In this document: piece after piece, positions 11,009 to 60,617 of the stretch
Numbering within the stretch: the stretch's first letter is position 1
How the letters are laid out: every line of letters starts with the position of its first letter
NCBI GenBank assembly: GCA_016201905.1
Contig: JACQBQ010000018.1
Location: 79,971-143,970, forward strand
Reading direction: 5' to 3'
DNA length: 64,000 bases
DNA from: Candidatus Melainabacteria bacterium
Lineage (GTDB): Bacteria > Cyanobacteriota > Vampirovibrionia > 2-02-FULL-35-15
Translations under genes and position numbers: made by a program
The notes under the pieces: model-generated
The model's input: the letters and a program-made list of their open reading frames with translations, nothing else
Databases searched by the model: none
What the model was told of the DNA's origin: nothing

Positions 11009-11097
11009 CTGAGCGAAGGATGAGTCCACTGCGGTGAGCAATATCCTGAGCGTCGGGAAGGAAAAGGAAAAATCATGTTTGATCCATGATTTTTCCG
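11009..11097 (+). promoter_or_regulatory. Repeated structured leader element, copy 1 (upstream of rpmE)
   Basis: CTGAGCGAAGGAT...GCGGTGAGCAATATCCTGAGCGTCGGGAAGGAAAAGGAAAAATCATG-TTTGATC-CATGATTTTTCCGG; 12-bp terminal stem; related copies at 13474, 53563, 60539. Confidence 0.7.
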
Positions 11098-13473: not shown

Positions 13474-13541
13474 TAAGCGAAGAATATTCTGGTGAGGAAT
13501 ATTCTGAGCGTTAGGAAGGAAAAGGAAAAGGAAAAGTCTTG
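13474..13541 (+). promoter_or_regulatory. Repeated structured leader element, copy 2 (divergent, upstream of flhB-like gene)
   Basis: TAAGCGAAGAATATTCTGGTGAGGAATATTCTGAGCGTTAGGAAGGAAAAGGAAAAGGAAAAGTCTTG; same core as copies 1, 3, 4. Confidence 0.6.
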
Positions 13542-13659
13542 TGAGAACTAAACTTTTTAATGAAGCGAGTCTTGATCCAATTTATTTAGGCAAGCCGAGT
13601 GCTTTGTGGAAAGCTGGTTCGAGGAGCAACGTCACCGCAGAACCAGCGGAGTAAAAAAC

Positions 13660-14739
13660 ATGGCTGATCAAGAAGCCGGTGATAAGCAGTTTGATGCTAC
13701 ACCGCATAAATTAAGAGAAGCTCAAAAAAAAGGACAGGTTTTTAAAAGCAAAGACCTTACTCAGCTTGTTACTTTTATTGTTGGTTTTTTTATGATTTAT
13801 TACAATGTGGGTTTTATTTGGGAAAACTTTGCAAGATTATTTAACACTCTTTGGAGAGAGATTCCTCATAAATCGCTTTCAGCAATTGGTGGTGGATATA
13901 TTTTTTATGAAAGTTGGCATTGTATAGTTGTTATTATTGTCCCGTTGTTACTGGCTCTTTTGGCAACAGCGCTTGTGGTGGAGTTTTTCCAAGTCGGACC
14001 AATTTTCACGACTGAAACTATGAAATTTGATCTTGCTAAGCTTAATCCATTTGAAGGTTTTAAAAAGGTTATTTTCAATGTCAGATCATTGTTTGAATTA
14101 GTTAAGTCTGTTTTTAAAGTAAGTGTTTTAGGATACATTGCATTCTTAAGTTTAAAGAGATATATGCCTGAACTTTTGGGTCTTGTTGAAGTAAATAACA
14201 GGTTTGCTTCAATCGCAATACTAGGAAAAGTATTTTATGATTTTGCAGTTAAAAGTGTAATCTTTTTGTTGATCATATCAATCCTTGATTATCTCTTTCA
14301 AAGATGGAGATATATGAATGATCAAAAAATGACATTTAAAGAATTAAAGGATGAATTTAAACAAACTGAAGGTGATCCTTTGGTTAAATCTATGAGACGT
14401 CAGAGACAGCAACAAATTGCCTATGGTCAAATGATGGCGCAAGTTAAAGAAGCAGATTTTGTTGTGAAAAATCCAGATCATATTGCTATGGCATTAAAAT
14501 ATGATTCACAGATGAATCAAGCACCAAAAGTTTTAGCTAAAGGGTCGGAGTTGATTGCTGAGCAGATAATTGAGATTGCAAAAGAATACGGAATTCCTAT
14601 TGTAGAAAATATACCATTGGCCAGGGCATTGTTTCGCCTTGTCAGGGTTAATCAGGAAATCCCAGCTGAGCTTTACAGAGCTGTAGCTGAGGTGCTTCTA
14701 TTTGTCTATCAATTGCGTGGGAAGGAGCAGTTTCGTTAA
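13660..14739 (+). CDS. flhB: FlhB/SctU-family type III secretion export apparatus protein
   Basis: ATPHKLREAQKKGQVFKSKDL; VKNPDHIAMALKYD cleavage region; IPIVENIPLARALF. Start moved from ORF start 13606 to the FlhB-like ATG at 13660 (GGAG RBS). Confidence 0.88.
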   Translation: MADQEAGDKQFDATPHKLREAQKKGQVFKSKDLTQLVTFIVGFFMIYYNVGFIWENFARLFNTLWREIPHKSLSAIGGGYIFYESWHCIVVIIVPLLLALLATALVVEFFQVGPIFTTETMKFDLAKLNPFEGFKKVIFNVRSLFELVKSVFKVSVLGYIAFLSLKRYMPELLGLVEVNNRFASIAILGKVFYDFAVKSVIFLLIISILDYLFQRWRYMNDQKMTFKELKDEFKQTEGDPLVKSMRRQRQQQIAYGQMMAQVKEADFVVKNPDHIAMALKYDSQMNQAPKVLAKGSELIAEQIIEIAKEYGIPIVENIPLARALFRLVRVNQEIPAELYRAVAEVLLFVYQLRGKEQFR

Positions 14740-47720: not shown

Positions 47721-48839
47721 ATGAAAAAGATTGCAATTATTATAGGTACAAGGCCAGAAGTTATAAAGCTTGCACCAGTATACTTAGAGCTAAAAAAATC
47801 AAAAAAACTAAAACCGATTTTAATAAACACAGGTCAGCATAAAGAAATGGTTGACCAGATGTTTAAGTGGTTTGGCATTAAAGAAAATTACAATTTAAAA
47901 TTAATGGAAACAAATCAAACCTTGCAAAACCTTACGGCAAAGGCTATAGGGTCTATTACTGATTTACTTAAACAAATAAAACCTGACTTTGTAATGGTAG
48001 AAGGTGATACAGTAACTGTTATGGCAGCAAGTCTGGCTGCATTTTATTTGAAGATTCCTGTGGCTCATGTGGAAGCTGGATTAAGGACAGGTGATATTTA
48101 CAACCCGTTTCCTGAAGAGATGGCAAGGAGGGTGGTTTCACGTCTTGCAAGTATTCATTTTGCACCGACTAAAAAAGCAGTTTTAAATTTAAAAAAAGAA
48201 AATATTAAAAACAATGTTTATTTGACTGGAAATACTGTCATTGATGCACTTTTGTATACGACAAAACATATTTCAGGAAGTAAGAAGAAGCTTGTTCCTC
48301 CAATGATTGTTAGGAGCCTCGATTTTAAGAAGCATAGAGTGATTTTAGTAACGATACACAGGCGTGAAAACTTTGGTAAGGCTCACAGAGAGATTGCAAG
48401 AACACTAATTAAAATATTAAATAATTTTCCGGATACAGTGGTTTTATTACCGCTTCACATGAATCCAAATGTGAGAAATGTAATTAAACCAGTTTTAAAA
48501 AACCATAAGCGTGTATTTTTAATAGAGCCTCCTGGGTATGTGCCTTTTGTGTATGCTATGAAAAATAGTTACTTGATTCTGACTGATTCTGGCGGTGTTC
48601 AGGAAGAGGGACCTACGCTTGGAAAACCAGTACTTGTGCTGCGTACCACGACAGAACGACCTGAAGGTATAAAAGCTGGTTGTGCAAAGCTAGTAGGAAT
48701 AGATCCAAAAAATATTTTCAAAGAAACAGCTAAATTATTAACTGATAAAAAAGCATATAAAAAAATGTCAAAAGTAAAAAGTCCATATGGAGATGGGAAG
48801 GCTAGTAAAAGGATTGTCAAAATTTTAGAAGGGCTTTAG
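47721..48839 (+). CDS. wecB: UDP-N-acetylglucosamine 2-epimerase (non-hydrolysing)
   Basis: IIGTRPEVIKLAPVY, HVEAGLRTGDIYNPFPEEMARR, ILTDSGGVQEEGPTLGKPVLVLRTTTERPEG; ATG at 47721. Confidence 0.94.
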   Translation: MKKIAIIIGTRPEVIKLAPVYLELKKSKKLKPILINTGQHKEMVDQMFKWFGIKENYNLKLMETNQTLQNLTAKAIGSITDLLKQIKPDFVMVEGDTVTVMAASLAAFYLKIPVAHVEAGLRTGDIYNPFPEEMARRVVSRLASIHFAPTKKAVLNLKKENIKNNVYLTGNTVIDALLYTTKHISGSKKKLVPPMIVRSLDFKKHRVILVTIHRRENFGKAHREIARTLIKILNNFPDTVVLLPLHMNPNVRNVIKPVLKNHKRVFLIEPPGYVPFVYAMKNSYLILTDSGGVQEEGPTLGKPVLVLRTTTERPEGIKAGCAKLVGIDPKNIFKETAKLLTDKKAYKKMSKVKSPYGDGKASKRIVKILEGL

Positions 48840-50185
48840 GGATAGCCCCTTCTAAATTTGTTATATTTCTCCTGCCTCTCCAACTCTCTCTCCATCTTTT
48901 CCTGAACTTCATCAAGCGCATCTTTTGGATCTTTTTCAAGTTTCATTACAGATTCAAATGCTCTTTTTAATTCTCTTCTATAGAGTTCATAAAAAGTAGC
49001 CTGTGGAAAAAACATTGCATCTTTTGATTTCGCCAGGTCTATGAAAACTTTTATAAAAGGATGTGGGTGTTTTTTTATAAAATCATCCCTGTCTGAATAA
49101 ATAAGCGGTGAAAACTTTCCCTGTAGAGTACAAAGCTCTTCTATATTTTCTGGTTTAAGAAGCCATTTTATAAACTCAAATGCTTCATGTGGATGCTTGG
49201 CTCCTTTTGGTATTAAAATACAGTCACAATCGACTATGGTGGTTAATCTGCCATCGCTTGCAGGCATTGGCGCAACACCCCATTTTATATCAGGTGCAAA
49301 GTTTTTAATAAAGTTTCCTTCCCAGACCCCGTTGGTTTCAATAGCTATTTTTCCGCTATAAAAAGGATTGTTTAATCCCTGATAATTTCCACAACCTTCC
49401 TGAAAAGTTTGAATATTTCTTGCTCCTAGTTTTTTGGCAAAACTTTGAGCCCATCTCCATGCCTCAATATTCTTTGGGTTATTTGCTGTAATTCTTCCTC
49501 CTTCAGTGTCTCCCCAGTTCCCACCAAATAATAAAGCATAAAAACCAAATGACCAGGAAGGCCAGCTTGGAAGAAAACCAATCTGAGTTATTTTTCCGTC
49601 TTTATTTTTTTTTGTAATTTTTTCTGAATAGATCTCTATATCTTTTAATGTTTTTGGTGGTTTTTCTGGATCAAGACCAGCTTCTTTGAAAAGATTTTTA
49701 TTCCAGTAAAGTGCTGTTGCTGTAGGTGTGGTGGGCAAAGCCCAGGTATGACCGTATAGATTTAACATTTTCCAATAAGCACTTATGAACAACTTTTCAC
49801 TGATCATGCTTTCAATGCAATAGTCATCTAGCGGTATTAGTGCTTCTCTTGAAGCCAGCTCGGGTACCCAGGCTGCAATTGAACTTATTACATCAGGAGG
49901 TATTCCTCCAATAATTGAAAGCAATGTTTTTTTTCTGGGCTCTGAAATCGTAAGCATTCTAACTTTAATATCAGAATGTGTTCTATTAAATTTATCTACG
50001 AGTTTTTCAATGGCTTTGCCTTCAAAGCCAGTCCAATACTGCCAGTAAGTAATTTCAATTACGTCTTTTTTGTCATTGCGAGCCAAAGGCGAGGCAATCC
50101 CAATCGGGATTGCTTCGTCGCTAACGCTCCTCGCAATGACAATTATTGCTAAAATTATTGTCAATAAAACCAAAAATCTTTTCAT
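48836..50185 (-). CDS. ABC transporter extracellular solute-binding protein, family 1 (sugar-type); N-terminus contains repeat-derived codons
   Basis: ITYWQYWTGFEGKAIEKLVDKFNRTHSDIKVRM..., AFEFIKWLLKPENIEE; residues ~17-38 overlap the 50071-50141 repeat. Confidence 0.88.
   Translation of the reverse strand: MKRFLVLLTIILAIIVIARSVSDEAIPIGIASPLARNDKKDVIEITYWQYWTGFEGKAIEKLVDKFNRTHSDIKVRMLTISEPRKKTLLSIIGGIPPDVISSIAAWVPELASREALIPLDDYCIESMISEKLFISAYWKMLNLYGHTWALPTTPTATALYWNKNLFKEAGLDPEKPPKTLKDIEIYSEKITKKNKDGKITQIGFLPSWPSWSFGFYALLFGGNWGDTEGGRITANNPKNIEAWRWAQSFAKKLGARNIQTFQEGCGNYQGLNNPFYSGKIAIETNGVWEGNFIKNFAPDIKWGVAPMPASDGRLTTIVDCDCILIPKGAKHPHEAFEFIKWLLKPENIEELCTLQGKFSPLIYSDRDDFIKKHPHPFIKVFIDLAKSKDAMFFPQATFYELYRRELKRAFESVMKLEKDPKDALDEVQEKMERELERQEKYNKFRRGYP
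50071..50141. repeat. Inverted-repeat element, GTCATTGCGAG family, copy 2 (inside CDS)
   Basis: TGTCATTGCGAGCCAAAGGCGAGGCAATCCCAATCGGGATTGCTTCGTCGCTAACGCTCCTCGCAATGACA. Confidence 0.9.
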
Positions 50186-53562: not shown

Positions 53563-53643
53563 TGAGCGAAGAATGTTGCGGTAAGCAATATTCTGAGCGT
53601 TGTGAAGGAAAAGGAAAAATCTTGTTCAAAGCGAGATTTTTCC
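53563..53643 (+). promoter_or_regulatory. Repeated structured leader element, copy 3 (upstream of accB)
   Basis: TGAGCGAAGAATGTTGCGGTAAGCAATATTCTGAGCGTTGTGAAGGAAAAGGAAAAATCTTGTTCAAAGCGAGATTTTTCC. Confidence 0.75.
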
Positions 53644-53656
53644 GATATATAAAAGC

Positions 53657-54100
53657 ATGAAGATTCCATGGGAAGAAATTGAAGAACTTACTAAATACCT
53701 TAAAGATAAAGGTCTTACTGAAATTACAATTGAAACTAAGGAAGAAAAGATTACCGTTAAGAAAGATTTACATGGAGAAGTTACCTCTACTGTAATTCCA
53801 CAAGGTGTAAAGTCTGAGAAGATTCCTAAAAAAGAAAAGACAACTGAACCAGAATCAAAGTTTCATGAAATTACATCTCCAATGGTTGGCACATTTTATA
53901 TGGCGCCAAGTCCTGGTTCAGACCCATTTGTTCAGGTTGGTTCAAAAGTTAAGCCTGGTGATGTACTTTGTATTATTGAAGCAATGAAAATCATGAATGA
54001 ATTGCCCAGTGAAGTTTCAGGAACAGTGGTTGAAATCCTTGCTAAGGATAATCAAACGATTGAATTTGGACAAGCCATAATGAGGATTCAGCCGGTTTAG
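53657..54100 (+). CDS. accB: Biotin carboxyl carrier protein of acetyl-CoA carboxylase
   Basis: EITSPMVGTFYMAPSPGSDPFVQVGSKVKPGDVLCIIEAMKIMNELPSEVSG. Confidence 0.96.
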   Translation: MKIPWEEIEELTKYLKDKGLTEITIETKEEKITVKKDLHGEVTSTVIPQGVKSEKIPKKEKTTEPESKFHEITSPMVGTFYMAPSPGSDPFVQVGSKVKPGDVLCIIEAMKIMNELPSEVSGTVVEILAKDNQTIEFGQAIMRIQPV

Positions 54101-60226: not shown

Positions 60227-60538
60227 TTAATTTCTCCTCTTAATGCTTCTAAAATAACAATATTATATTGATTAAATTAAAACACGAACACAAAAGCTTT
60301 AATCTTTTTTTATTATGACATAAGCATAATTAAGAAAGCAATACTAAATATTAAAAGATAATGAATTGTTGTTTTAACCATTGTATGGAATGTACAGGAG
60401 ATTAGAATTAGCCTGTACTGTTAAAATTAACTTTGATTTCTTAATCTTAATTCTTAACCTTTAGGTTAAGAGGTTAAGAAAGTGAAGGTTTTTCTAAAAA
60501 CGAAAAACCGGAACGCTGAAAATAGTTAATCAATAAAA

Positions 60539-60617
60539 GCGAAGAATGTTGCGATGAGCAATATTCTAAGCGTCGTGAAGGAAAAGGAAAAATCTTGTTC
60601 AAAGCGAGATTTTTCCG
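60539..60617 (+). promoter_or_regulatory. Repeated structured leader element, copy 4 (upstream of upp-like gene)
   Basis: GCGAAGAATGTTGCGATGAGCAATATTCTAAGCGTCGTGAAGGAAAAGGAAAAATCTTGTTCAAAGCGAGATTTTTCC; nearly identical to copy 3. Confidence 0.75.

Follow-up and report, generated by a model that had tools for sequence, protein, structure and literature searches.

Why do sequences of closely similar structure lie directly upstream of four genes as different as rpmE, flhB, accB and upp? The window analyzed here, a stretch of 64,000 nt spanning G000:C23:79971-143970 in a 2.28 Mb genome of 59 contigs that is 98.9% complete (G000 below), comes from the Melainabacteria, non-photosynthetic relatives of cyanobacteria. 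An earlier note on this DNA reported four structured copies of a module, with two hairpins each, and proposed a cis-acting RNA regulon or a translation leader rather than randomly placed repeats. Bacterial mobile palindromes are usually located at gene ends and are treated as junk or terminators. The family described here instead precedes dozens of housekeeping genes in the sense orientation, its RNA structure is kept by compensatory change, and its Shine-Dalgarno (SD)-like sequence is found mostly where a protein is made. Our tentative answer, in which we place slightly less than even confidence, is that the sequence is an insertable palindromic element, limited to one bacterial family, that serves as a 5' leader RNA and supplies its own ribosome-binding site. 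Other possibilities are a neutral repeat whose sense orientation is maintained by selection, a leader that binds a regulator, and a processing signal.

Structure and extent of the two-hairpin element

The four copies in the window are borne out by the sequence, and they belong to a family larger than first reported, of which G000 contains about 30 full-length members. In order, an element of about 80 nt comprises hairpin 1 (AGC-GAA-stem-UGA-GC), a linker of purines and hairpin 2, and ends in A/U-rich sequence of about 10 nt. All these parts are readily seen in the accB copy (53564-53644, plus strand), which precedes the AUG at 53657: hairpin 1 occupies positions 53564-53603 (the span of covariance model R2, E=2.4e-10, with covariation), the purine linker with the SD-like GAAGGA positions 53604-53612 (anti-SD energy -6.1), hairpin 2 positions 53613-53643 (14 bp, type GGAAAAATC..GATTTTTCC) and an A/U-rich spacer without a local SD positions 53644-53656. 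In the rpmE copy, likewise on the plus strand, the stem of hairpin 1 (11011-11056, matched by models R1 and R2) is enlarged by 6 nt, and hairpin 2 lies at 11066-11096. The plus-strand upp copy includes hairpin 1 at 60537-60576 (R2, E=2e-11), hairpin 2 at 60586-60616 and the spacer GAGGTAAAA; a diverged extra hairpin 1 just upstream of this copy on the same strand (60480-60519; R2, E=3.3e-4) had been missed previously. The proximity to start codons that was originally claimed is confirmed for these three copies, the ATG codons of rpmE (11108), accB (53657) and upp (60626) beginning 11, 13 and 9 nt after hairpin 2, respectively.

The claim of two hairpins in all four copies holds for rpmE, accB and upp and fails for the flhB-side copy, in which hairpin 1 (13475-13514, plus strand; R2, E=1.2e-9) is followed by the linker and a broken hairpin 2, the GGAAAAATC..GATTTTTCC hairpin being absent. 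This copy is followed or interrupted by a second repeat module, type E (13545-13659, plus strand, left boundary approximate), which includes its own hairpin (13613-13647), ends directly before the flhB ATG at 13660 and has a core represented at 8 related places in the genome. Three exact occurrences of the linker GAAGGAAAAGGAAAAATC were located (11057, 53604 and 60577), positions 13515-13538 contain a variant, and 7 occurrences with up to 3 mismatches were observed in the window versus a mean of 0.34 in dinucleotide shuffles. Elsewhere in the window, the proteins encoded at 819-1943 (C-terminus RHCEEQSDEAI) and 48836-50185 (N-terminus ARSVSDEAI) carry, at these ends, repeats that seem to be translated in frame and that we take to be of the common REP-like CGTCATTGCGAG type.

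A relaxed-pattern scan of the genome detected 18 copies, 9 on each contig strand, and none with the reversed-pattern control. A covariance model of the kind that the earlier note had proposed (R1, built on 17 copies) yielded 30 matches in the genome at E<1e-8; the E-values of these models are rough. The places detected by a model of only hairpin 1 (R2), about 38 in total, were almost identical, so hairpin 1 is not scattered elsewhere. Among 60 genomes searched (G000 and relatives), R1 matches were detected in 8 of the 11 members of the family (including G000) versus a single marginal case among the 49 genomes outside it; R2 raised the count within the family to 9 of 11. The exact hairpin 1 pattern, searched in one genome per species for 85,462 species, retrieved only records of Candidatus Melainabacteria, some of them from groundwater, and had no match in viral contigs. 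Judging from these sequence matches, related copies are present in most genomes of this Melainabacteria family and essentially nowhere else among those searched. A match to a known Rfam family, which the earlier note had named as an argument against its own reading, was not found: in a search of the window against Rfam 15, only tRNA and 5S rRNA reached the gathering score, and a relaxed search with six copies of the element returned only chance-level matches. Membership of the element in an Rfam family was accordingly rejected, and we found no published description of it in the open-access literature.

Both hairpins covary across copies, in agreement with the structure originally described. 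In the alignment of hairpin 1 (59 sequences), 98.7% of the cells are paired compared to at most 56% in slid controls, and 10 of the 12 pairs show changes on both sides; shuffle-based measures of covariation are inflated by the shared ancestry of the copies, and the slid controls retain this relatedness. Hairpin 2 covaries across 17 copies and comes in several sequence types, GGAAAAATC..GATTTTTCC, GCAAAAATT..AATTTTTGC and GAAAACATTT..AAATGTTTTC, each of which is self-complementary. On the gene-sense strand, the stem cells of hairpin 1 include 620 Watson-Crick pairs, 72 G-U, 7 A-C and 3 other combinations. Because the mismatches on this strand are G-U rather than A-C, the conserved entity is the RNA of the sense strand; such a bias is expected of sense-strand RNA and would not result from symmetrical maintenance of a DNA palindrome.

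The base of hairpin 1 permits a conserved GA/GA internal loop, which together with its closing pairs is the best-kept part of the element and is replaced by ordinary pairs in a few copies (e.g. L018, L087 and L090). In L001, L013, L018, L040, L080 and L094, the terminal loop seems to be reverse-complemented (e.g. TCACC for GGTGA), as if the tip had been flipped. In the predicted ensembles, hairpin 2 is formed and the linker is 78% unpaired, compared to 50% for positions -22 to -4 of control genes; the predicted openness of the start codon in the leaders with the element is mixed. Strong 5' hairpins are not a general habit of this genome: of 268 genes, no more than 13 were predicted to have one, and in about half of these cases it is the element.

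Placement, orientation and target genes

The sense orientation noted for the window extends to the entire genome, where 30 of 30 full-length copies point in the same direction as the next gene. In 28 of these, hairpin 2 ends 7-28 nt before the gene, which starts with a start codon in 26 cases and is a tRNA gene in 2 (Ser-GCT and Tyr). The remaining two are the interrupted flhB copy (L048) and L041 (G000:C48:3457-3537), a full element located in frame inside the N-terminus of a ferredoxin-like open reading frame (ORF). The upstream neighbor is co-directional in 16 cases and divergent in 14, and for the former alone, the chance of a uniform sense orientation is 2^-16. Moreover, the 14 copies that have at least 109 nt of upstream intergenic DNA are still found at the gene end of it (KS p=3e-12). 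No fixed promoter was detected upstream of the element, -10-like boxes being no more common there than in shuffles; the 3' TATAAA of the element was also considered as a -10 box and rejected, since no more than 2-4 nt separate it from the 5' ends of some tRNAs. In several relatives in which rpmE lacks the element, a promoter-like -10 box is seen about 10-20 nt before the ATG, so that rpmE may be nearly leaderless in those genomes.

The target genes of G000, named by eye from their sequences and with gene starts that are our own calls, some of which will be wrong, include ispH, upp, trpF, accB, nadE, groES, rpmH, rimM, pyrF, mrp/apbC, rplL, gdhA, rpmE, metK, sodB, a fliQ-like gene, murA, ligA, ftsE, tmk and others. 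In the relatives, additional copies precede tRNA-Met, Ile, Gln, Leu and Ser genes. The regulon that had been suggested is not supported by this roster, given that the targets are unrelated and include, in several cases, tRNA genes, for which there is no translation. The median gap between hairpin 2 and the gene is 10.5 nt before tRNAs and 10 nt before start codons; because the two are equal, the spacing may belong to the element rather than to ribosome binding.

Under one alternative, these copies constitute a true cis-regulatory RNA family, in which hairpin 1, with its GA/GA loop, binds a protein or another factor that co-regulates growth genes and tRNAs. The conservation of this loop and its closing pairs, the presence of rpmE, rpmH, rplL, rimM, metK, groES and tRNAs among the targets, and the occurrence of the element before rpmE, metK, sodB and murA in several genera would all fit. 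However, no common thread connects these targets with upp, trpF, flhB, ligA, sodB and pyrF, most of the places are not common to different genera, and the loop is inverted, or the internal loop fully paired, in some copies. We therefore consider a dedicated regulatory family unlikely.

Insertion history and putative ribosome binding

Comparison of orthologous junctions reveals interspersed insertions with empty sites in relatives. At the efp-accB junction, where G000 carries the element, one relative has a spacer of 0 nt and the others have a few nt or, in some cases, different palindromes; at the rpmE junction, the element is present in 3 of 11 genomes. Two members of one genus differ at many junctions by inserted palindromes, several of which lie just before an ATG. 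Elements at unrelated loci are up to 95% identical, whereas their flanks are not, and the nested copy L015 has the loop of hairpin 2 split by the same type E module that follows the flhB copy. Because copies have been gained and lost at orthologous junctions, are nested, occur within one ORF and, in some relatives, are flanked by duplications of 41-61 nt, the element is not a simple fixed leader of a regulon. Thus, the original contrast with randomly placed repeats survives in part: place and direction are non-random, but the copies are insertions.

The direct duplications of 41-61 nt, identified by comparing left and right flanks, surround about 10 sites, mostly those of related element types at tRNAs; shorter duplications of 24-25 nt were also observed. 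The usual layout, an intact tRNA, the element and a copy of the 3' part of the tRNA, gives the appearance, from the sequence, of an insertion accompanied by a long duplication. It is seen most clearly for a full type-1 element at L050; related types are found at most of the other sites. At L050, L068, L122, L126, L128, L129 and G000:C32:97546 (L226), an intact tRNA is followed by a leader element and a 50-61 nt copy of the tRNA 3' portion that starts near the end of the D arm. This linked set points to an insertion process of an unfamiliar kind. No target duplication was found when left and right flanks were compared at 56 gene-proximal copies. Some of the copies shared between genomes look old by their sequence: those of metK in G000 and G010 have an unusual GGAGGAGG linker in common, and those of sodB in G000 and G001 a short-loop hairpin 2.

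Such a history is compatible with a plain selfish palindromic repeat, a MITE or REP that inserts beside genes, is tolerated where harmless and has no function. Apart from the empty sites, the nesting, the copy within an ORF, the near-identical copies in unrelated flanks and the long duplications, this explanation is favored by the fact that these genomes also harbor repeats of the ordinary kind. It does not account for the strict sense direction and the closeness to the start codon, which persist where intergenic regions are long, the sense-strand G-U bias, or the retention of an SD-like linker mainly before proteins, and known REP superfamilies are mostly 3' of genes (PMC3733652). A functionless repeat appears to us improbable, to the same degree as the dedicated regulatory family.

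We return to the insertable leader and its linker. The 3' end of 16S rRNA in G000 carries CACCTCCT, and the comparison of SD strength included 55 full-length copies with an adjacent gene, 47 before proteins and 8 before tRNAs. A strong linker SD was found in 28 of the 37 protein copies that lack an SD after hairpin 2 compared to 1 of the tRNA copies, a group of only 8 (Fisher p=0.0016), and p=0.01 was obtained by permutation within genomes when all protein copies were included. By comparison, a strong SD at the usual position was found for 27% of the ordinary genes in G000, with starts called by us. A clear linker SD is absent in about a quarter of the protein copies, and before sodB, the SD is located after hairpin 2 in both genera (G000 and G001), the linker SD being lost or weak in G001.

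In these 28 protein copies, the SD lies upstream of a stable hairpin and the start codon just after it, and the data are best fitted by a speculation in the earlier note, according to which the purine tract upstream of hairpin 2 serves as the SD once this hairpin is looped out. With hairpin 2 removed, the distance from GG to AUG drops from about 45 nt to about 14 nt. In the mRNA, looping out of hairpin 2 would thus place the SD-like sequence about 12-16 nt from the AUG; a copy could then occupy the near-zero gap between two genes without silencing the second one, and only gene-facing copies would be tolerated. Before tRNAs, the ribosome-binding function would not be needed and might have faded. 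The looped-out spacing is somewhat long, which counts against bypass. We infer that the leader probably brings its own ribosome-docking site when inserted. If so, its copies would illustrate how insertions can be accommodated in a genome with hardly any intergenic space and would represent a natural library for hairpin bypass between SD and AUG. In G005 and G009, unrelated palindromes at gene junctions (e.g. GAGAGGAAAGCTCCAGCTTGTCTGGAGCTATAAAAAATG) are arranged as a purine SD-like stretch, a hairpin, ATAAAA and ATG, and this layout may extend beyond the two-hairpin element.

The equal spacing before tRNAs and start codons, the copies between operon genes and between tRNAs, and the A/U-rich single strand after hairpin 2 would also be expected of a processing or stability signal, with a ribonuclease cutting the hairpins and the A/U-rich tail and thereby trimming the 5' ends of mRNAs and pre-tRNAs. 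However, this scheme leaves the weaker SD-like linkers before tRNAs unexplained, and a cut after hairpin 2 would discard the only SD in most copies, so we regard it as quite unlikely. Finally, spread via RNA ends, whereby the element is joined at the 5' boundary of a mature RNA (nearly leaderless start codons, tRNA 5' ends) and copied back into DNA, is highly improbable and, if true, would mean that bacteria have a mobile leader from which genes acquire a ribosome-binding site.

Comparison with known systems

The GTAG- and CGTC-tagged REP superfamilies are short palindromes located predominantly downstream of coding regions, in opposed dimers (PMC3733652). The present element resembles them in being a short palindrome with many copies at many unrelated genes that is likely transcribed, and differs in its sense placement just upstream of genes (28 of 30 copies directly before a gene) and its fixed two-hairpin layout. 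The Y1 (RAYT) transposase (PF01797) has no match in G000 and is present in 6 of the 11 family genomes; a REP driven by a RAYT was rejected given its absence from G000. The Rickettsia palindromic elements are in-frame insertions in ORFs and are frequently intragenic, to the extent of nearly half of the copies in three of ten families (reviewed in PMC10969869). L041 is a comparable in-frame palindromic repeat; unlike in Rickettsia, however, such copies account for only 1 of 30 here.

With respect to placement, the TAACTGA repeats of marine Beggiatoaceae are similar in that they are intergenic, numerous, forward-oriented and only a few nt from start codons; a translational role has been proposed for them (PMC4679880). 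In Beggiatoaceae, direct repeats of 7 nt without structure take the place of the SD region, whereas the present element has two covarying hairpins and an SD-like linker and is also found at tRNA genes. In an RNA thermometer of the FourU type, the SD that functions is close to the AUG and is paired with UUUU in the hairpin; here, the paired GGAAAAA lies far upstream of the AUG (GG to start about 45 nt linear), and another GGA is free in the linker.

With respect to the suggested mode of initiation, an experimentally tested precedent is provided by genes 38 and 25 of phage T4, in which RNA structure between the SD and the AUG shortens the spacing from 22 to 5 nt and from 27 to 11 nt, respectively (PMC3014915). 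By analogy, structure between the SD and the AUG may bring a long spacing to a working one in the present element as well. The T4 cases are single phage genes, whereas here the putative bypass would operate in a repeat family, with a longer looped-out spacing (about 14 nt from GG) and a second hairpin upstream.
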